Below, in pieces: positions 4,215 through 56,128 of a DNA stretch of 64,000 nucleotides (the stretch's first letter is position 1; each line of letters opens with the position of its first letter). The translations under genes were made by a program, and so were the position numbers. The stretch is from assembly GCF_030813715.1 (NCBI RefSeq), contig NZ_JAUSUZ010000001.1, forward strand, positions 3,782,001 through 3,846,000, given 5' to 3'. The DNA comes from Catenuloplanes indicus (lineage in GTDB: Bacteria; Actinomycetota; Actinomycetes; Mycobacteriales; Micromonosporaceae). The notes under the pieces are model-generated. The model was given only the letters and a program-made list of their open reading frames with translations, had not been told where the DNA came from and ran no database searches.

Positions 4215-5270
4215 CTACTCCGTCACTCTAGGCAACCGGGTGGTCGGATCCGGCGGCGTGCTGCGCGCCCGGTTCGCGTTCGGGCCGGACGGCACGCCCG
4301 GGTAGCGCTGCGTGGGCAGGTCGACCGGCGGCCGGCCACCCGCCGGCGGCTGTGCGGGCAGCATCTGCGTGGCACCCTCGGTCGCGCCGCTCCAGCCGGC
4401 CGTGCGCGGACCGGCGCCGTAGACGCCGCCACCGTCACCGCCGCCACCGCTGCCACCGCCGCCGCGCGGCCACGAGCCGCCGGAGCCGGCGAACGCACCG
4501 CCGTCGTCCTCCGCGCGGTTGCGCCGGACCAGCAGCACGATCAGCGCCACGCCGACGCCGACCATGACCACACCGATCGCGATCGGCACGCCGAGCCCAC
4601 CGAACAGGCTGTCGTTCGACTTCAGCGACACCGGGCCGGCCGGGTCCGGCGGGAGCGACTCGAAGGTGGGCGCGGCCGCGGCCTCCTCGGTCTTCTCCTC
4701 CTCCGGCGTGGGAGACGGCGACGGGCTCTTGGACGGGCTCTTCGACGGGCTGGGCTTGGGCGCGGGCTCACCGCCGCGGATCTGCGCCTCGTCGTCGCCG
4801 TCGGCCAGGCGGTTGTCGTTCTCGTCGAGCATGAAGCCCTCGAACCGAACCTCGCCGTTCGGCGCGTTCGGCCCGAACGCGACGCGGAACCGGACGGTCT
4901 GCTGCCGGTTGCGCCGCTCGCACATCTCCGCCTCGGCCGGCTGCACCAGCTGCGTGACGTAGTCGCCGTCGGCCTGCGCGCTCAGCTGCACCTGCACGGT
5001 CTGGCCGCCCGAGTTGACCGCGACCACGACCTGGTCCGGGCTCAGGTCGTCGGCGCGGATGCGCAGCTGGGCGCGGGCCCGGATGCAGCCGTCGTCCTCC
5101 CGGCGCAGCCGGATGTCGACGTTCTGCGGCCCGTTGCCCGCGGTGAACGAGCTGGGCGCGCTCACCGCGACCTCGTCCGCGTAAGCAGGCGCGACACCCA
5201 GCGTGACGGCACCGAGCAGCCCGGCCACCATCGCCATCAGGGCATGCGCCACCCATCGCCGTACAAGCAT
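4215..5270 (-). CDS. Secreted, membrane-anchored protein with Ser/Pro linker (unknown function)
   Basis: About 351 residues. An N-terminal signal peptide ends near an AYA site around residue 32. A beta-rich extracellular domain follows (about 35-170) with two cysteines. Then comes a PSPSKSPSKSPSPSPTP linker, one transmembrane helix (GVPIAIGVVMVGVGVALIVLLV), a basic stop-transfer segment, and a Gly-rich then Pro/Thr-rich cytoplasmic tail. This is a type I anchored surface protein; no enzyme motif is visible. The ATG at 5270 is chosen because it begins a clean signal peptide; a GTG 10 codons upstream is possible. It is divergent from nothing close by and appears to be a single-gene unit. Confidence 0.7.
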   Translation of the reverse strand: MLVRRWVAHALMAMVAGLLGAVTLGVAPAYADEVAVSAPSSFTAGNGPQNVDIRLRREDDGCIRARAQLRIRADDLSPDQVVVAVNSGGQTVQVQLSAQADGDYVTQLVQPAEAEMCERRNRQQTVRFRVAFGPNAPNGEVRFEGFMLDENDNRLADGDDEAQIRGGEPAPKPSPSKSPSKSPSPSPTPEEEKTEEAAAAPTFESLPPDPAGPVSLKSNDSLFGGLGVPIAIGVVMVGVGVALIVLLVRRNRAEDDGGAFAGSGGSWPRGGGGSGGGGDGGGVYGAGPRTAGWSGATEGATQMLPAQPPAGGRPPVDLPTQRYPGVPSGPNANRARSTPPDPTTRLPRVTE

Positions 5271-5347
5271 GTCTGGGAGGCTACATCGCCGGTGCGACAA
5301 CGCCGAAGCCGTCGTTCGGTCGATAAGCCAACCCTTTTAAGACCAAT

Positions 5348-6016
5348 TCACCGGGTACGTCCAGCGAGCGCGGCGCGGCACGCATGGTCCGCGGCCCGGG
5401 TCGTCTCCGGCAGGCGGAACCGCGGGGCGAGCGCCAGGACCTGCGCGGCCGCGCCGGCCACGGAGATCCGGTGGCCGGGCGAGACGAACACCGGCCGCAC
5501 CCGGTCCTGGGTGCGCAGCACGGTGCCGACCGTCACCCCATCGAGCGAGATCGGGCTCGCATCGCCGCGCCGCTCCCCCGGCATCGCCCACTCGCCGGTC
5601 AGGTGCGTCTTGCCGACGCCCAGCGCGGGCAGGCCGGTGAGCACGCCGAGGTGGCAGGCGAGACCGAAGCGGCGCGGGTGGGCCAGGCCGTGACCGTCGC
5701 AGACCAGCAGGTCGGGGCGGGTGCTGAGCCGGTCCAGCGCGGCCAGCAGCGCGGGGATCTCGCGGAACGCGAACAGGCCCGGGACGTACGGGAACGCGGG
5801 ACGGCCGATGGTGACCGCCTCGTCGACCGGTTCCAGCGTGGCCGCGTCCAGCACCACCACGGCCGCGACCAGCCGCTCGTCGCCGTCCGCGTAGGCGACG
5901 TCCAGACCGGCCACGGTCCTCGGCGATACCGGTGCGTCGGTCAGGTCGACCAGCCCGCGGAGGCGGTCCTGCTCGGCCTCGGCCTCGGCGACGGTGGTGG
6001 GCCAGGCGGCGGTCAC
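5348..6016 (-). CDS. nfi: Endonuclease V (deoxyinosine 3' endonuclease)
   Basis: Repairs deaminated purines by nicking DNA one base 3' of deoxyinosine. The 222-residue protein has the family core: GLDVAYADGD with the first catalytic aspartate near residue 42, FPYVPGLFAFREIPALL around residues 85-101, DGHGLAHPRRFGLA around residues 118-131, and a late FVSPGHRIS segment. The GTG start at 6016 fits the homology start; the long upstream open frame is antisense to the next gene. It stands as a single gene between the secreted protein and the aldehyde dehydrogenase on the same strand. Confidence 0.9.
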   Translation of the reverse strand: MTAAWPTTVAEAEAEQDRLRGLVDLTDAPVSPRTVAGLDVAYADGDERLVAAVVVLDAATLEPVDEAVTIGRPAFPYVPGLFAFREIPALLAALDRLSTRPDLLVCDGHGLAHPRRFGLACHLGVLTGLPALGVGKTHLTGEWAMPGERRGDASPISLDGVTVGTVLRTQDRVRPVFVSPGHRISVAGAAAQVLALAPRFRLPETTRAADHACRAALAGRTR

Positions 6017-47365: not shown

Positions 47366-48322
47366 ATGCGCATCACGGTCTTGGCCGGCGGCATCGGCGG
47401 TGCCCGTTTCCTCCAGGGTGTGCGGGCGCACGCCCGTACCCTGCCGGAGAGCGACGTCACCGCGGTGGTGAACGTCGCGGACGACACGCGCATGCACGGT
47501 CTGCGGATCTCCCCGGACCTGGACAGCGTCATGTACACGCTGGGTGGCGCGCACGACGCCGAGCGCGGCTGGGGTCAGGCCGGCGAGACCTGGACGGTCA
47601 GCGGCGAGCTCAAGGCGTACGGCGCGGAGCCGACCTGGTTCGGCCTCGGCGACAAGGACATAGCCACCCATCTGGTACGCACCACCATGCTCGACGCCGG
47701 CTACCCGCTGTCCCAGGTCACCGAGGCGCTCTGCACCCGGTGGAACCCCGGCGTCCGGCTGATCCCGGCCACCGACGACCGCCTGGAGACCCACGTCGTG
47801 GTGGACCTGCCCGGCGAGGGCCGGCGCGCGATCCACTTCCAGGAGTGGTGGGTCCGGCACCGCGGCAACGTACCGACCAGCCGGTTCGTCTTCGTCGGCG
47901 CGGACGCGGCGAAGCCCGCACCCGGCGTGCTCGACGCGATCGCGGCCGCCGAGGTGATTCTGATCGCGCCCAGCAACCCGGTGGTGAGCATCGCACCGAT
48001 CCTGGCCGTGCCCGGCTTGCGCGACGCGCTGCTCGCCGCGCCCGCACCGATCGTCGGCGTGTCCGGCATCATCGGCGGCTCCCCGGTGCGCGGCATGGCC
48101 GACAAGTGCCTGGCCACCATCGGAGTCGAGTGCACCGCGGCCGGTGTCGGCGGCCTCTACGGGGCGCGCTCCGACGGCGGGCTGCTGGACGGCTGGCTGG
48201 TCGACACCACCGACGACGGGATCACCGTCCCCGGCGTCCGGGTCGCGTCCGCGCCGCTCTGGATGACCGACGAGGACGCGACCGCCGCGATCGTGGCCGC
48301 CGCCCTCGCGCTGACCGAGTGA
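47366..48322 (+). CDS. fbiA: 2-phospho-L-lactate transferase (CofD/FbiA)
   Basis: Transfers the phospholactate/phosphoenolpyruvyl group from its GDP-activated form to FO, giving (dehydro-)F420-0. The 318-residue protein has the N-terminal MRITVLAGGIGGARFLQGV nucleotide/FO-binding motif, VVNVADDTRMHGLRISPDLDSVMYTL near residues 32-57 and the IAPSNPVVSI segment near 209, all CofD hallmarks. The length is standard. fbiB follows about 210 bases later on the same strand. Confidence 0.96.
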   Translation: MRITVLAGGIGGARFLQGVRAHARTLPESDVTAVVNVADDTRMHGLRISPDLDSVMYTLGGAHDAERGWGQAGETWTVSGELKAYGAEPTWFGLGDKDIATHLVRTTMLDAGYPLSQVTEALCTRWNPGVRLIPATDDRLETHVVVDLPGEGRRAIHFQEWWVRHRGNVPTSRFVFVGADAAKPAPGVLDAIAAAEVILIAPSNPVVSIAPILAVPGLRDALLAAPAPIVGVSGIIGGSPVRGMADKCLATIGVECTAAGVGGLYGARSDGGLLDGWLVDTTDDGITVPGVRVASAPLWMTDEDATAAIVAAALALTE

Positions 48323-48530
48323 AACCCGCCACCACCGATGATCGTTTCCACGGCGTAGGGCTTGCACGGGAACAGCACGTCGCCGCGCAGCGATTCCGGT
48401 GATCCGGCGCCGCCGGTTTCCCGGCTTCTCCCGCCTCGCCGCAGCGACGTGCGAGCGGCTACACGTGAATCGGCACCGGCCGCGACGAACCGGCATCGGC
48501 GTGGTGAAGAGAAAGAGCGGAGAGAGTCCC

Positions 48531-49637
48531 GTGACCGACCTGATGGTCCTGCCCGTCGCCGGCATCGGCGAGATCCGGCCCGGCGACGACCTGGCCGCCG
48601 CGATCACCGAGGCCGCGCCGTGGCTGCAGGACGGCGACGTCCTGGTGGTCACCTCCAAGATCGTCTCGAAGTCCGAGGGCCGGCTGGTCACCGTGCCCGC
48701 CGCGGAGGGACCGGAGCGCGACGCCGCCAAGGCCGAGGTGCTGCGGGCCGAGACCGCCCGGGTGGTCGCCAGCCGCGGCCCGGCCCGGATCGTGCAGACC
48801 CACCACGGCTTCGTCATGGCGAACGCCGGCATCGACGCCTCCAACGTCGAGCCGGACCGCCTGGTGCTGCTCCCCGAAGACCCGGACGCCTCGGCCCGCG
48901 CACTGCGCACCGCGCTGCACGCGCTCACGTCCCGTACCGTCGCCGTGATCGTCTCCGACACCATGGGCCGCCCCTGGCGCAACGGCCTCACTGACGTCGC
49001 ACTCGGCGTCGCCGGCCTCGACCCGATCGACGACCACCGCGGCCGCACCGACTCGTTCGGCAACGAACTCCACGTCACCCAGATCGCGGTCGCGGACGAG
49101 CTGGCCGCCGCCGCCGACCTGGTCAAGGGCAAGGCCGACGGCGTACCGGTGGCCGTGGTCCGCGGCTACCGTTTCCCGGTGCCGGACGGTGACGGCCCCG
49201 GCGCCCGCGTCATGGTCCGCGACGGCGCCACCGACATGTTCGCGCTCGGCACCACCGAGGCGCGCGCCGCCGGCCTGCGCGACGCCGCCGACCTGCCGCC
49301 CGCGCCGCTGTTCCACGCGCCCGCGCTCCCCGACGCGGAGGACACCGCCGCCGTCATCCGCGCCATCTCCCACGCGCTGCCCGCCGCCGCCCCCGGCACG
49401 CTCTTCACCCACGAGAAAAACCCCGCCACGGTACGCGAGACGCCGCCGCCTGGCGTCGAGATCCCGGCCGCCACCACCGACCTGATCATCTGCACCCCGC
49501 CGGCGGACTCCGTCCCCGCACTGATCCGCTTCGGCGCCGACGTCCACCGCCTGCGCGCCTCCCTCGCCGCCGAGGGCCTCGCCTCGGCCACCCTCACCGA
49601 CGTCCCGCCCATCCTCCTGGCGGTCGGCCCGGCCTGA
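48531..49637 (+). CDS. fbiB: Coenzyme F420-0:L-glutamate ligase (CofE/FbiB) with shortened C-terminal domain
   Basis: Adds glutamate residues to F420-0. The N-terminal CofE domain (about residues 1-245) is complete: [32 protein letters not shown], and [24 protein letters not shown]. In mycobacterial FbiB a C-terminal nitroreductase-like domain of about 200 residues reduces dehydro-F420-0. Here only about 120 residues follow (total 368 rather than about 448), with a short [25 protein letters not shown] part that may be its remnant. The GTG at 48531 is chosen by homology ([13 protein letters not shown]) and an AGAGAG ribosome site. Confidence 0.9.
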
Positions 49638-49674
49638 TCGTGCTGGCACAATCAGGACCCGTGCTGCAGCACTA

Positions 49675-50516: not shown

Positions 50517-50622
50517 CCCTTTCCGGCCGCACGCGAGTCCTCAGTGCACACGGTGGGCCAAGCGACACGCCAGCGCCCGTCGCATACCCGACGGGCATGC
50601 GACCATCGGATCGCCTCACCGG

Positions 50623-50837
50623 TCACGCGGACGTGGTGGGGTGGGCGTCAGGCGGTCCAGCGCTGGCGGGTGGCTTCGGTGCGGTTACGGGCGCCGACAA
50701 CCGGGCCTGCGGCCCAGCAAAATCAAGCCACACTCGCACGGGTACGCCGGGGGCGTGCTTGGCCGCGTTGGTGAGCGCTTCCCGGGCGATGCGCAGCAGC
50801 GAGACCTCCGCGCTGGGTTCGAGCGCCCGCGGCGTAC
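50623..50837 (-). pseudogene. Remnant of a two-component system (HisKA_3-type kinase, possible LuxR tail)
   Basis: The segment PRALEPSAEVSLLRIAREALTNAAKHAP followed by VRVWLDFAG is the start of the ATPase domain (N box) of a NarL-type sensor kinase. Nothing upstream of it survives: at about 50838 it meets foreign low-GC DNA. Downstream, a second frame gives GARNRTEATRQRWTA then a stop, which resembles the last residues of a LuxR-type response regulator. The simplest reading is a deleted kinase-regulator pair. Confidence 0.55.
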
Positions 50838-50840
50838 CGG

Positions 50841-51004
50841 TGATAGCGGAGGTGCATGTGGCAATCAACAATAAGGGTGGACTTTGTAGTAATTTGATTA
50901 ACTGCACTGAGTCAGTTCAGGACATGCTGCCAAAGGGATATACAATGCATGTTTGGTGGGGTGCCGGTGAGGGTGAGCACACCACACTGAAGGGACGTAG
51001 GTAG
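50841..51004 (+). pseudogene. C-terminal tail of an SCP1.201/DddA-like deaminase toxin
   Basis: The frame reads VHVAINNKGGLC, then an INC segment, MLPKGYTMHVWW and a Gly-ending tail before TAG at 51002-51004. This matches the last third of SCP1.201-like (DddA family) cytidine deaminase toxins: an INN/HNN strand, the zinc-binding Cys pair (here C-x6-C), the LLP motif, a T-x-x-V strand and a final TG-like end. The catalytic HAE part and everything before are missing, so it cannot be active. The upstream junction falls inside the kinase remnant. The GC drops sharply at this point. Confidence 0.6.
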
Positions 51005-51008
51005 ATAA

Positions 51009-51524
51009 TTGTCGGTAAATGACATCAACATCCCACCACGGCCCGCTTGGTCTTACATTCCTTTCGTATGCGTTGGTGGCTTGAATTTCGGTATGCGGCA
51101 TTCGGAGGTGATTGACGTGGTCGCTTCCGCTGGTGGCGCGACGACTGATGCGATTATCACCTCCAACGGTGGACCTTGGGCGCGATTTGCTGATGTCGGA
51201 CTTTCTGCATATTATTCCGACTCGCGAATGCTTTCCGGCATTGCGGTTGATGCGATTTCCGGCCCACAGGTTCTGCACGATAGCCGCGAACTTGTCGGGC
51301 GTGCCCCTTCAGGTTATGGAGCCTGGATCGAAAATTACACTGAATTATATGATCTGCGCCTCAGGTATTCAGAGGAGGGTATTCCGTCTTCGCCAGATCT
51401 TGGCTTTTTGATGCGCGTTCAGCGTGCCGGTGACGTGGTCTTGACAAGGCCGGTGTTCGTCATTGAAGGTTGGCTGGACAGTCCATACGACAGTATTCCC
51501 CGGGTGGAGTGGAATACATTTTAG
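51009..51524 (+). CDS. Probable immunity protein for the adjacent deaminase-type toxin
   Basis: A 171-residue soluble protein starting at TTG, 4 bases after the stop of the toxin tail, with a weak AGGTAG ribosome site. An in-frame TAA just before the TTG rules out extension. It has no known domain I can name. Features are CVGGLNFGMRHSEVIDVV near residue 21, a YYSDSRMLSGIAVD strand pair near 68, and many aromatics, as in small alpha/beta immunity proteins. Base composition is much lower in GC than the chromosome, indicating recent transfer. The function is inferred from position only. Confidence 0.6.
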   Translation: MSVNDINIPPRPAWSYIPFVCVGGLNFGMRHSEVIDVVASAGGATTDAIITSNGGPWARFADVGLSAYYSDSRMLSGIAVDAISGPQVLHDSRELVGRAPSGYGAWIENYTELYDLRLRYSEEGIPSSPDLGFLMRVQRAGDVVLTRPVFVIEGWLDSPYDSIPRVEWNTF

Positions 51525-51689
51525 TGTCGCGCGCGTCCCAGGTAATTTGACGTACGGGACATTGAGGTTACCTCGGTAAGGGTTGGGACCGTTTCGGCAT
51601 GCCACGGGCTGCCGGGTGGCGTAGTCGGCGGCATTGGCGCTCCGCCGATACTCGTGGCGGTGCAGTTCAGATAGGACGAAGGTCAGTAT

Positions 51690-52120
51690 CAGGGCCGGGC
51701 AGCCGCCGACGACCTGGACGCCGCGATGCGGTGCATCCGACTGCTGGCGTACGCGATCCTCGACGGCACCCTGATCCCGATCGACCGGGTTGCCGACCAG
51801 AAGCCCTACTACTCCGGCAAACACAAGCGTCACGGGGCGAACGTGATGACCTTCGCGGACAAGGGCTACCAGGGCGCCGGTGGCACCGTCCGGACGCCGT
51901 TCAAACGGCGCCACATGCGCTCTTAATACAGCAGTCGACCAAGATCCGATGCCCTCACAGGAGCCTCGCTCAGGCTGTTCCACCCCTCCGCGATCTCATC
52001 GTCCATCCGCAGTTTTGATCACCTCACTGTCCCGATCCGCCGGCACGGTGAGCAGGAACGCTATCGGTGGCGGCGACGGCCTCGACTCCGGCCGTCAGGC
52101 ACTGCTCGGTCCGTTATGCG
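51690..52120. mobile_element. Scrambled remnants of the same IS5-type element
   Basis: On the plus strand, AILDGTLIPIDRVADQKPYY and KRHGAN then FADKGYQGA (about 51693-51926) match the central part of the transposase at 15.9 kb with an internal deletion. Directly after, 51929-51955 is identical over 27 bases to the leader of that IS (16662-16688, other strand), followed by decayed start-proximal codons up to about 52110. The N-terminal part therefore lies after the central part, so two copies were fused or one was rearranged. Not functional. Confidence 0.8.
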
Positions 52121-52160
52121 AAATGGCTCACTGAGTACCCCGCCGTGATGGGAGGTGGCG

Positions 52161-52727
52161 TCAGATCTGGCTGAGATCGACCTCGATGGGGAAGGGCGCG
52201 GTCAGCTTCACCGTGCCGGTGAAGACCTCGCCGTCGCGGTAGCGGCCGGCTGCCGGGTCGAGGACGTATGTGTAGACGATGGGTACGCCGGTGGCGGCCT
52301 GCTCGACACGCCAGTAGAACTGGATCCCCACTCGCGCATACTGCTCGGCCTTGACGATGCGGTCGGTCGTCTCCGATCCGGGTGAGACCACCTCGACCAC
52401 GAGAAGCACGTGCTCGGGTCGGGTCGGGGCGACGTCGATGGTGTCCGCCCGGTACACCGTGACATCGGGGCGACGGTTGTTCAGCGGGACGTCATGGAGG
52501 CGCACGTCGAAGTCGGTGTCCGCGTTCCAGTCGGGCCCCGCCGCGGCGTCCAGGGAATTCGCCAGCAGCCGGGCCAGACGATTGTGCCGCTTGGATGCGC
52601 TCGGACTCACGAGAATCATCCCATCCACGATCTCGATGCCCGCGCATTGCTCAGGTGTCCATGTCGCGTACTGCTCGGCTGTGACCAGCTCGTGCATCCA
52701 GTCCGGCGCGACCATCTCGACAGTCAT
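52161..52727 (-). CDS. Uma2-family (DUF820) PD-(D/E)XK endonuclease-like protein
   Basis: A 188-residue protein of the Uma2 family, which has a restriction-endonuclease-like fold and no settled role. Core residues are visible: a Glu in GIEIVDGMILVSPSASKRHNRL, Asp in RRPDVTVY, the Glu-x-x-SPGSETTDRIVKAEQYARVGIQFYW segment with the catalytic Glu-x-Val (LVVEVVSPGS) and Lys. The ATG at 52727 is preferred because AGGAGG lies 5 bases upstream; a GTG two codons earlier is weaker. Such genes are often multi-copy and mobile in actinomycetes. Confidence 0.88.
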   Translation of the reverse strand: MTVEMVAPDWMHELVTAEQYATWTPEQCAGIEIVDGMILVSPSASKRHNRLARLLANSLDAAAGPDWNADTDFDVRLHDVPLNNRRPDVTVYRADTIDVAPTRPEHVLLVVEVVSPGSETTDRIVKAEQYARVGIQFYWRVEQAATGVPIVYTYVLDPAAGRYRDGEVFTGTVKLTAPFPIEVDLSQI

Positions 52728-52760
52728 ACCCACCTCCTGGAGCGTCCTTGGCTACCGGAC

Positions 52761-53795
52761 TCACGATACCGACGAGCCGCCTAGCCCGGGGGTCCTGGTG
52801 CGGTTGGCCGGGCCGCTCGGGGGCTGGGACCAGGGTGACTCTGGGCGGCGCGCGGTCGGCACCTGCGGGTCGTCGGGGGCGGGGCCCTCGGGGGCGGTCG
52901 GTGCGGGGCGGCCGGGCGCCGGCCGGCGCGCGGGGTCCCCCGGCTGCGGCTGCGGGACCGGTTGCGGCGTCGGCTGCGGAGGGGCGGGCGGCGTGGCGCT
53001 GCCCTTCGCCCGCTTCGTCGCGGGGCTCTCCACGACCGGCCCCGGCACGGACACGCTGGCCAGCGTCAGCGGCGCGGCCGGCTTCGGCGGCGCGGCGACC
53101 ACCGGAGGTGCCGTCGGCGCGGCCGGGGCCGGCGGCGCTGAGGACACGGCCTGCCCGGGGTGCGTGGGAAGCGCGGCGGGAGCCGGATCGACCGGCCGAC
53201 CGGCCGGCGACACTGGCCGCAGCTCCTGGGTGACATCGTCGGACTCGGACACATCGGAAGCGCTGGACGCCTCGGAGGCCCCGGATCCGGCGAAGGTCTC
53301 GGACGTCGCGGCCGCGTCGCCGGTCTCGTCAGTGTCGGGAGCCTCAGCGGCAGGTGCGGCCGCCGCGACCGGCCACCGGCGCCAGCGCTGGATGCTGAAC
53401 GGCGCCACCAGCAGCAGCACCCCAAGAACGGCCAGCGTCCCGTTGTTCAGCGGCACGTGCAGCGGGACCGGACGGTCCAGGATCACCCAGTCGTTCGGCA
53501 GGACGTCGCGGACCGCCAGCGGGTCGATGAACGTGGCCACGTACCCCGAGATCAGCAGCAGTCCGGCGACCAGCGGGCCCACGGGCGAGATGCGCAGCGT
53601 GGCGACGATGCCGAGCAGGACGCCGGCGACGAGCAGGAACGCGGCCGGTTCGATCAGGTCGTGGGTGTCCCACCCGCGACCGGCGGCCACCCAGCCGGCG
53701 ATCAGCTCGGAGGAGGAGGCCTGGCCGGTGGCGAGCAGGAGCCACGTCAGTGGTGCCGCCACCAACCCGGCTATCAGACTCCAGATGTGTCGCAT
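52761..53795 (-). CDS. Membrane protein with long Pro/Ala/Ser-rich cytoplasmic tail (unknown)
   Basis: About 344 residues. Four hydrophobic helices lie in the first 140 (IWSLIAGLVAAPLTWLLLATG, AAFLLVAGVLLGIVATL, VGPLVAGLLLISGYVATFIDP, LAVLGVLLLVAPF). The tail from about 150 is acidic and Ser-rich first, then extremely Pro/Ala-rich. It resembles other uncharacterised actinobacterial membrane proteins. The ATG at 53795 begins just before helix 1 and is preferred to an ATG 12 codons upstream. It is divergent from the acetoacetyl-CoA synthetase gene. Confidence 0.65.
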   Translation of the reverse strand: MRHIWSLIAGLVAAPLTWLLLATGQASSSELIAGWVAAGRGWDTHDLIEPAAFLLVAGVLLGIVATLRISPVGPLVAGLLLISGYVATFIDPLAVRDVLPNDWVILDRPVPLHVPLNNGTLAVLGVLLLVAPFSIQRWRRWPVAAAAPAAEAPDTDETGDAAATSETFAGSGASEASSASDVSESDDVTQELRPVSPAGRPVDPAPAALPTHPGQAVSSAPPAPAAPTAPPVVAAPPKPAAPLTLASVSVPGPVVESPATKRAKGSATPPAPPQPTPQPVPQPQPGDPARRPAPGRPAPTAPEGPAPDDPQVPTARRPESPWSQPPSGPANRTRTPGLGGSSVS

Positions 53796-53892
53796 AGCGC
53801 GCACCGTACCGTTTTCCGGCTTTCCGGTCATCTCTGGGACGCACCGCGAAAGTCCACTTACTCCTTAACGCTTATTAGGGCACCATCATGAC

Positions 53893-55821
53893 ATGGGCAC
53901 ACCGCTGTGGTCACCACCTGACGACGTCCGCGACACCAGCCGGGTCGGCGCCTATCTGGCCTGGCTGGAACGGGAACGCGGGCTGCGCTTCGCGGACTAT
54001 CGCGCGCTCTGGGAATGGTCGGTCGCCGATCTCCCGGCGTTCTGGTCGTCGATCTGGGAGCACTTCGGCGTGCACGCCTACGACCCGCCGCGGCAGGTGC
54101 TGGCCGATCCGGCGATGCCGGGCGCACGCTGGTTCCCGGGCGCGACGCTCAACTACGCCGAGCACGTTCTGCGGAAAGGCACCGGGGAAGGCCCGGTGGT
54201 GCTGGCCCGAAGCCAGACCAGGGCGCCCCAGGATCTGACCGCCGAGGACCTGAAAGACCAGGTCGCGAGGGTACGGGCGGGTCTGCGCGCCCGAGGCGTC
54301 CGGCGCGGTGACCGGGTGGTGGCGTACGCGCCGAACATCCCGGAGACGCTGGTCCTGCTGCTGGCCACGGCCAGCCTGGGCGCGATCTTCTCGTCCTGCG
54401 CCCCGGAGTTCGGCGTCCGCAGCGTGATCGACCGCTGGCGGCAGATCGCGCCGAAGCTGCTGGTGGCGGTGGACGGCTACCGGTACGGCGAGAAGGCGAT
54501 CGACCGGCGTGCCGAGGTCGCGGAGATCCGGGCCGCGCTGCCGTCGCTCACCCACGCCGTAATGATCACCTATCTGGGTGACGACGAGGGGGACGCGGAG
54601 CCGTGGGCGGAGCTGGCCGCGCCGACCGCCGAGCCGCTGCGCTTCGAGCCGGTGCCGTTCGACCATCCGCTGTACGTGCTCTACTCGTCCGGCACGACCG
54701 GGCTGCCGAAGCCGATCGTGCACGGGCACGGCGGCATCCTGCTGGAGCACCTGAAGATGCTGGCGCTGCACCACGACCTGGGCCCGGGCGACCGGTTCCT
54801 GTGGTTCACCACCACCGGCTGGATGATGTGGAACTTCCTGGTCTCCGGCCCGGCCGTGGGCGCGTCGATCGTGCTGTTCGACGGCAACCCGGCGCATCCG
54901 GACCTGGGCGCGATGTGGCGGCTGGCCGCGGAGACCGGAACGACCTATTTCGGCACGTCCGCGCCGTTCCTGATGGCCTGCCGGAAGGCTGGCGTGCGGC
55001 CACCGGAGCTGCCCGGACTCCGCGGCATCGGCTCGACCGGCGCGCCGCTGCCGGCCGAGGGCTTCGACTGGGTCTACGACGCGGTCGGCCGGGACGTGCG
55101 GCTGGACTCGCTCTCCGGCGGTACGGACGTGTGCACCGGGTTCGTGGGTGGCTCGCCGCTGCTGCCGGTGCACGCCGGCCGGATCGCCTGCCGGGCGCTC
55201 GGCGCGCGGGTGGAGGCGTTCGACCCGGCCGGCAAGCCGGTGCTGGACCAGCTCGGCGAGTTGGTGATCACGGCGCCGATGCCGAGCATGCCGGTCGGGT
55301 TCTGGGGCGACGAGGACGGGAGCAGGTACCGGGAGGCGTACTTCGACGTGTTCCCGGGCGTGTGGCGGCACGGCGACTGGATCACGATCGGCGAGGACGG
55401 CTCCTGCGTGATCACCGGCCGGTCCGACGCCACGCTGAACCGGGGCGGCGTGCGGCTCGGCACCGCGGAGTTCTACTCGGTGGTGGAGGGCCTGGACGAG
55501 GTCGCGGACTCACTGGTCGTGCACCTGGAGGAGAGCGACGAGTTGCTGCTCTTCGTCGTACCGTCGGCGGGTTTTGATCTTGATCTGGACGCACTGCGGC
55601 ATGCGCTGCGCACCGGGTTGTCGCCGCGGCACGTGCCGGACGAGATCCATCCGGTCGGCGCGGTGCCCCGGACGCTGTCCGGGAAGAAGCTGGAGGTGCC
55701 GGTGAAGCGCATCCTCGGCGGGACACCGGCCGGGGCGGCGGCCGCGAAGGGCGCACTGGCGAACCCGGAGTCGCTGACCGCGTTCGAGCAACTCGCCGCA
55801 CGGCGTCACGCGACGCAGTGA
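53893..55821 (+). CDS. aacS: Acetoacetyl-CoA synthetase
   Basis: Activates acetoacetate (ATP, CoA) to acetoacetyl-CoA. The 642-residue ANL-superfamily enzyme has the ACS-type N-terminus (LPAFWSSIWEHFGV), AMP-binding P-loop YSSGTTGLPKPIVHGHGG at about 261-278, TTTGWMMWNFLVSG around 305, GDWITIGEDG and GRSDATLNRGGVRLG (about 502-520), and the acylation lysine in RTLSGKKLEVPVKR near 604. The sequence MWNFLVSGP and the long N-terminal domain separate it from acetyl-CoA synthetase. Single gene with an ATG at 53893. Confidence 0.93.
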   Translation: MGTPLWSPPDDVRDTSRVGAYLAWLERERGLRFADYRALWEWSVADLPAFWSSIWEHFGVHAYDPPRQVLADPAMPGARWFPGATLNYAEHVLRKGTGEGPVVLARSQTRAPQDLTAEDLKDQVARVRAGLRARGVRRGDRVVAYAPNIPETLVLLLATASLGAIFSSCAPEFGVRSVIDRWRQIAPKLLVAVDGYRYGEKAIDRRAEVAEIRAALPSLTHAVMITYLGDDEGDAEPWAELAAPTAEPLRFEPVPFDHPLYVLYSSGTTGLPKPIVHGHGGILLEHLKMLALHHDLGPGDRFLWFTTTGWMMWNFLVSGPAVGASIVLFDGNPAHPDLGAMWRLAAETGTTYFGTSAPFLMACRKAGVRPPELPGLRGIGSTGAPLPAEGFDWVYDAVGRDVRLDSLSGGTDVCTGFVGGSPLLPVHAGRIACRALGARVEAFDPAGKPVLDQLGELVITAPMPSMPVGFWGDEDGSRYREAYFDVFPGVWRHGDWITIGEDGSCVITGRSDATLNRGGVRLGTAEFYSVVEGLDEVADSLVVHLEESDELLLFVVPSAGFDLDLDALRHALRTGLSPRHVPDEIHPVGAVPRTLSGKKLEVPVKRILGGTPAGAAAAKGALANPESLTAFEQLAARRHATQ

Positions 55822-56128
55822 TGTGCACATCCTGCGAATTCGGTGCTGGGCGTTGAACCGGACCAGGTCACGGCGTTGCAATCGGTCAAAATCTTCAGAG
55901 CAGGACCATCAAGGTGTACGGAGTGTGACCGCTCTTGCTCACGGCGATGAGGGTGAGCGGAAGATCCGACAATGCCGTGTGATCGGTGGATGGAAAGACC
56001 CCTTACCGTCGCGTCGTGGACATCGCCGCAGAACCGGATCGGCGTAGGCTTGCTCCGGTCGCCGTGCCCCCGCGCCGCATGTTTTCGCACCCGGATCGAT
56101 ATTCACTGACAGATCGAGGAGTCGCCCT
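55822..56128. other. 307-bp intergenic region without a gene
   Basis: Between acetoacetyl-CoA synthetase and the glycosyltransferase. No frame has a domain or a good ribosome site. GC is somewhat lower than the flanking genes. It should contain the promoter for the glycosyltransferase, but no confident hexamers are seen. Confidence 0.5.

Follow-up and report, generated by a model that had tools for sequence, protein, structure and literature searches.

Immunity proteins of the Imm1 and Imm4 families are listed for the SCP1.201 deaminases in the excerpted sections of Zhang et al. 2012 (PMC3482391), sections that also describe arrays of toxin cassettes and propose that polyimmunity loci defend against the toxins of others. 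Excerpts of a later report name the Imm1 protein UmbD1 as the partner of UmbC1, the deaminase toxin of a Streptomyces umbrella particle (PMC11062931). In the extracts of two further papers, an orphan Rhs immunity protein of Serratia was tested as a defense against the toxins of others (PMC10539506), and cross-protection by noncognate immunity proteins was reported (PMC12483513).

We analyzed 64,000 nucleotides of the Catenuloplanes indicus genome, hereafter the window, in which the end of a DddA-like deaminase toxin is followed by an intact 171-codon gene (Table 1). The locus is probably the remnant of a toxin array and carries a member of an undescribed family of immunity to DddA-like toxins, a family that would often act as a toxin-free, single-gene defense.

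Table 1. Features of the deaminase locus in the window. G067 and G006 are comparison genomes, the former of the same genus.
Feature	Positions	Strand	Remarks
Left anchor gene common to window and G067	48399..49637	+	Presumably cofE-like; 47612-49653 is 91% identical to G067 3200000-3202046, where the shared sequence ends
ORF fragment fused ahead of stump	50623..50907	-	104 bp at 80% to G006; presumably a histidine-kinase ATPase piece; no Pfam family at E 0.01
DddA-like deaminase toxin stump	50843..51004	+	C-terminal part with the cysteine pair, lacking the HxE half; PF14428 positions 86-133 of 137
Junction	50847..50849	.	Identity with G067 from 50848 on (blastn); upstream sequence of other origin
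Probable immunity gene, undescribed family	51009..51524	+	171 codons, TTG start; 41 of 300 genomes from the host's bacterial family have homologues; no family match
Right edge	51525..51926	+	Sequence common to G067; similar pieces inside the G067 array; presumed transposase-like remnant at about 51726-51926

The sequence-only reading had recognized the tail of a DddA-like deaminase, and the Pfam profile PF14428 supports the assertion. The match spans window positions 50843-50995, and the 53-residue stump piece alone scores 26.6 bits (E = 6e-6) against a cut-off of 25. Below that cut-off are the 135-residue ORF containing the stump, with 24.1 bits, and the stump when all six frames of the 9.25 Mb genome are searched (E = 2.8e-4, 23.4 bits). 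This six-frame search placed no PF14428 match above cut-off anywhere in the genome; at a loose limit of E 10 it gave one further place, with E = 2. Five of 14 control genomes also had matches at E 10, none above cut-off, and none of the 14 had one at E 0.01. The cysteine pair of the zinc site lies at the matching place in the profile, with the spacing C-x5-C and not the C-x6-C first read. The HxE catalytic motif is absent from the window and in G067 is located upstream of the junction position, in agreement with the proposed loss of the catalytic half. With that half missing the stump is a relic, not a deaminase, and the window is without a working deaminase toxin.

GC content falls from 0.72 at 50600-50799 to 0.51-0.57 over positions 50900-51599 and reaches 0.685 again at 51600-51799; the drop near 50.84 kb had been noted correctly, and recovery comes near 51.6 kb. 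The tail had been read as an open frame from 50841 to 51004; it is open to that end, but the frame at 50841 has stops and coding starts at 50843. From the ATG that gene-calling software would prefer (50597) the frame runs through unrelated GC-rich sequence, and deaminase codons occur only from about 50843. The DNA ahead of the stump is other chromosomal sequence (Table 1), as the description of a tail fused to chromosomal debris implied.

At the corresponding chromosomal position, G067 carries the 171-codon gene with 88% identity. Window positions 50848-51845 are 94.7% identical to G067 (blastn) and the right flank, 51837-56000, is 92% identical, whereas the distance from left anchor to junction is 1.2 kb in the window and 10.2 kb in G067. 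The 10.2 kb stretch contains a ricin-lectin protein, the end of which we take to be RHS-core-like, a presumably transposase-like ORF, a PT-HINT protein with Endonuclea_NS_2 at its end, SUKH-1 and SUKH-4 genes, and finally a 182-codon deaminase ORF with HxE present (PF14428 positions 6-125, E = 2.3e-16). Only 18 bases separate this ORF from the 171-codon gene, at the end of the HINT/SUKH toxin-immunity array. Being short and not in frame with a full toxin, the G067 deaminase ORF looks displaced too.

The G067 stretch appears to be an array of polymorphic-toxin cassettes, the final part of which is retained in the window. The window locus is probably the worn-down end of such an array, a rearrangement having presumably taken the toxin body and HxE half and left the last 53 or so codons together with the intact downstream gene. 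A toxin-immunity cassette had been proposed as an acquisition; the cassette is there, but it is not newly acquired in the window's strain, for the sister genome carries it in the same location. Elsewhere in the G067 array, the PT-HINT/Endonuclea_NS_2 protein (locus L167, 5574-7480) and the SUKH-1 gene after it form another toxin-immunity pair. In the window, a minus-strand gene that we take to be Uma2/DUF820-like (52161-52733) lies beside the presumed transposase-like remnants, at what was the array's right edge.

As the sequence-only reading had it, the 171-codon gene begins four bases past the stop of the stump. The reading frame is free of stops and frameshifts. Its protein has no match in Pfam, SUKH, SUFU, and other immunity families included, or in NCBIfam at E 5, and at E 1 PADLOC and PHROGs gave none either. 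A Pfam search with 32 family members returned only four chance-level families, and the best solved structure has E 0.41, which is chance. We recognized no description of the family in the literature searched, which excluded most subscription papers, and the early impression of an undescribed family is borne out by the databases. A promoter scan of the locus gave one site versus 0.4 expected and is uninformative.

A class-wide search, less sensitive and scoring few candidates per genome, located homologues in 14 of 394 genomes, possibly an undercount. They were also found at 24 named-genome loci, including those of Glycomyces, Dactylosporangium, Catellatospora, Amycolatopsis, Actinomadura, Streptomyces, Kitasatospora, and Nonomuraea, and in 36 plasmid records of Streptomyces, Embleya, and Kitasatospora. 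Conserved blocks of the family are W...P...VGPLRFGM, GPQV, QRAGDVVLTRPVF, and a C-terminal P..EW. Some members are fused pairs, with two domains in one frame (L104, L105), or tandem pairs (L094, L097, L107), and genome G207 carries a fused pair twice in nearly the same form, in regions near 3.875 and 3.960 Mb that are about 85 kb from each other. An origin from phages or viruses was considered and rejected: the family is absent from the phage collection searched, and a motif-based search of viral contigs confirmed no member.

The link between the family and deaminases is positional and statistical. Five separate places show a DddA-like toxin, or a relic of one, with a family gene behind it in the same orientation. 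PF14428 (E 0.01) occurs in 14 of the 41 family-bearing genomes and adjoins the family gene in the window's genome and G067 only; the other 27 have the family and no PF14428 match at that limit. We examined 16 of the 36 plasmid records (16 of 20 listed), a sample picked for holding the family, and four, all of Streptomyces, carry PF14428, each with one place that precedes the family gene in the same orientation. The Streptomyces virginiae plasmid has an ALF/PT-HINT/DddA-like toxin about 0.65 kb before the family gene, the NBC_01220 plasmid has a toxin of the same architecture about 1.1 kb before it with Imm1 between, and the NBC_00464 plasmid has an RHS-repeat/DddA-like toxin about 0.15 kb before it. 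In S. clavuligerus pSCL3, a degraded DddA-like relic under the PF14428 cut-off lies about 0.2 kb before an intact family gene, and an intact deaminase toxin of ALF size with Imm1 is found elsewhere on the plasmid. The pSCL3 relic (4136-4798 of L063) and family gene (4965-5501) make a second case of a stump plus an intact gene. Chance alone would yield about 0.003 linked cases among the 14 genomes with PF14428 and about 0.011 among the four plasmids. All counted linkages were confirmed with the Pfam profile.

In a tree of 87 family sequences the linked members occupy four branches, one of them shared by pSCL3 and NBC_01220. Linked deaminases fall among Imm1-linked ones in a deaminase tree of mostly low supports, which left out L050 and four further rows (short or duplicate). 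A local deaminase model built on 22 stretches, one of which (L050, wrong offset) has no deaminase, found none beside the family gene at the 24 named-genome loci or, within short flanks, at 23 class-wide loci (the window's own excluded). The sequence-only reading had asked whether homologues follow deaminases; at the five places they follow a toxin or relic, but most examined homologues have no deaminase neighbor. It had staked itself on similarity of the tail to deaminases and on homologues beside toxins, and both are found. Genes directly downstream of the toxin on the same strand, the position of an immunity gene, are those of G067, NBC_00464, and S. virginiae, and most members are placed otherwise.

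Of 28 deaminase places in 14 genomes (29 PF14428 rows, two pieces of one gene being merged, and two under cut-off), Imm1 follows within 1.5 kb after 17, the new family after two, both after none, and neither after nine, one place (C368 of G033) ending at a contig edge where no partner could show. In the window's genome a search at E 0.01 detected no Imm1, and none was found on the S. virginiae and NBC_00464 plasmids. On pSCL3 the intact deaminase is paired with Imm1 and the relic with the new family; NBC_01220 carries both partners. The NBC_01220 linkage is a weak case because the family gene lies behind Imm1, in a block carried elsewhere without the toxin. This block of 1.2-1.5 kb starts past the toxin and Imm1 and recurs at 93-94% identity in two other plasmids, both without a PF14428 match.

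It is conceivable, if unlikely, that the family has some other function inside actinobacterial cells and that its place beside deaminases reflects hitch-hiking in plastic regions of chromosomes and plasmids. The majority of examined members have no adjacent deaminase, and the separately shared NBC_01220 block fits such a history. So do the upstream neighbors of 40 loci (L070-L109) in the host's bacterial family: 20 have a same-strand gene within 800 bp by our own gene caller, and 17 Pfam families were detected in these genes, without a toxin domain and with one SUFU, so that no other toxin was seen beside solitary members there. Against this, the linkage is far above chance and always has the family gene downstream on the same strand, and Imm1 is missing at the linked places in the window's genome and G067, in S. 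virginiae, in NBC_00464, and at the pSCL3 relic. All 21 pairwise comparisons among seven related solitary members from five genera, none with a nearby deaminase, show common sequence only in the 564-804 bp that surround the gene (counting matches of at least 150 bp, two pairs sharing another piece elsewhere), and a housekeeping gene would not be expected to lack common flanks in this way.

Nor do we favor the view that the window gene is itself a functionless former immunity gene, a relic like the stump that has merely not yet decayed. The adjoining toxin is dead, and the comparison with G067 gives dN/dS 0.47 from just 14 synonymous and 21 nonsynonymous changes, indicating moderate constraint only. 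The undisturbed 171 codons speak against decay, however, as does the absence of an indel in the gene relative to G067 when the shared sequence holds one on each side. Related solitary copies elsewhere are constrained: the 24 closest family pairs other than the window's own (25 closest pairs in all, not independent) have a median dN/dS of 0.28 and a range of 0.17-0.53. The NBC_01220-type block shared without the toxin, the lack of common flanks, and the constrained solitary copies together indicate that the gene moves toxin-free and is maintained. It is very improbable that the stump, instead of being dead, serves as a silent and displaced tip that could recombine onto a toxin: cassette arrays are described by Zhang et al. 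2012 (PMC3482391) and the G067 deaminase is a 182-codon ORF without an in-frame full toxin in an array of such pieces, yet the window piece is missing the HxE half, and the stretch from left anchor to stump showed no toxin body.

Returning to the reading of a toxin-array remnant with its immunity gene, the proteins of the family would most likely inhibit DddA-like deaminase domains by binding to them. With no PF14428 place above cut-off in its genome, the window gene is probably an orphan immunity gene, acting against deaminase toxins that neighboring bacteria would deliver. Binding, inhibition, delivery by neighbors, and benefit to the host are steps that we infer. A broader reading is tentative: across the Actinomycetota this may be an anti-deaminase family, mainly of single toxin-free genes, that inhibits ALF/HINT (umbrella-type) or RHS DddA-like toxins, replaces Imm1 beside some of them, and otherwise provides a stand-alone defense against mutagenic attack by neighbors. 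If true, actinobacteria own a further immunity family against DNA-deaminating toxins, mostly carried toxin-free, and the protection of soil bacteria from competitors by orphan immunity becomes directly testable. The window and G067 also offer a natural pair for studying toxin loss with retention of the immunity gene. DddA-derived base editors are in use, and natural inhibitors of DddA-like enzymes could serve as controls for them.

Among described systems, the stump resembles the DddA/SCP1.201 toxins (PF14428) in matching the profile's C-terminal portion and keeping the cysteine pair, and differs from them in its missing HxE half. The 171-codon gene family shares with Imm1 (PF14430), UmbD1 included, a place downstream of DddA-like toxins, and the C-terminal aromatic residue and W of Imm1, as given in the excerpts of PMC3482391, have a similar counterpart in the new family. 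It differs in sequence: none of 32 family members matched Imm1 at E 1, and divergent Imm1 as the identity of the family was rejected by hhalign, with 0.4% probability against 17 Imm1 proteins, so that by these profile comparisons the family is not recognizably related to Imm1. Imm4 is likewise tied to SCP1.201 deaminases in the same excerpts (PMC3482391); from Imm4 and the DddA immunity protein of Burkholderia the new family seems to be set apart, the window protein matching no Pfam family of any kind at E 5. Polyimmunity loci and orphan immunity genes, as far as the excerpts of PMC3482391 and PMC10539506 describe them, resemble the new family in being toxin-free immunity genes, some in tandem or fused pairs, whereas the new family consists mostly of single genes, with a presumed DNA deaminase as target and an actinobacterial host.
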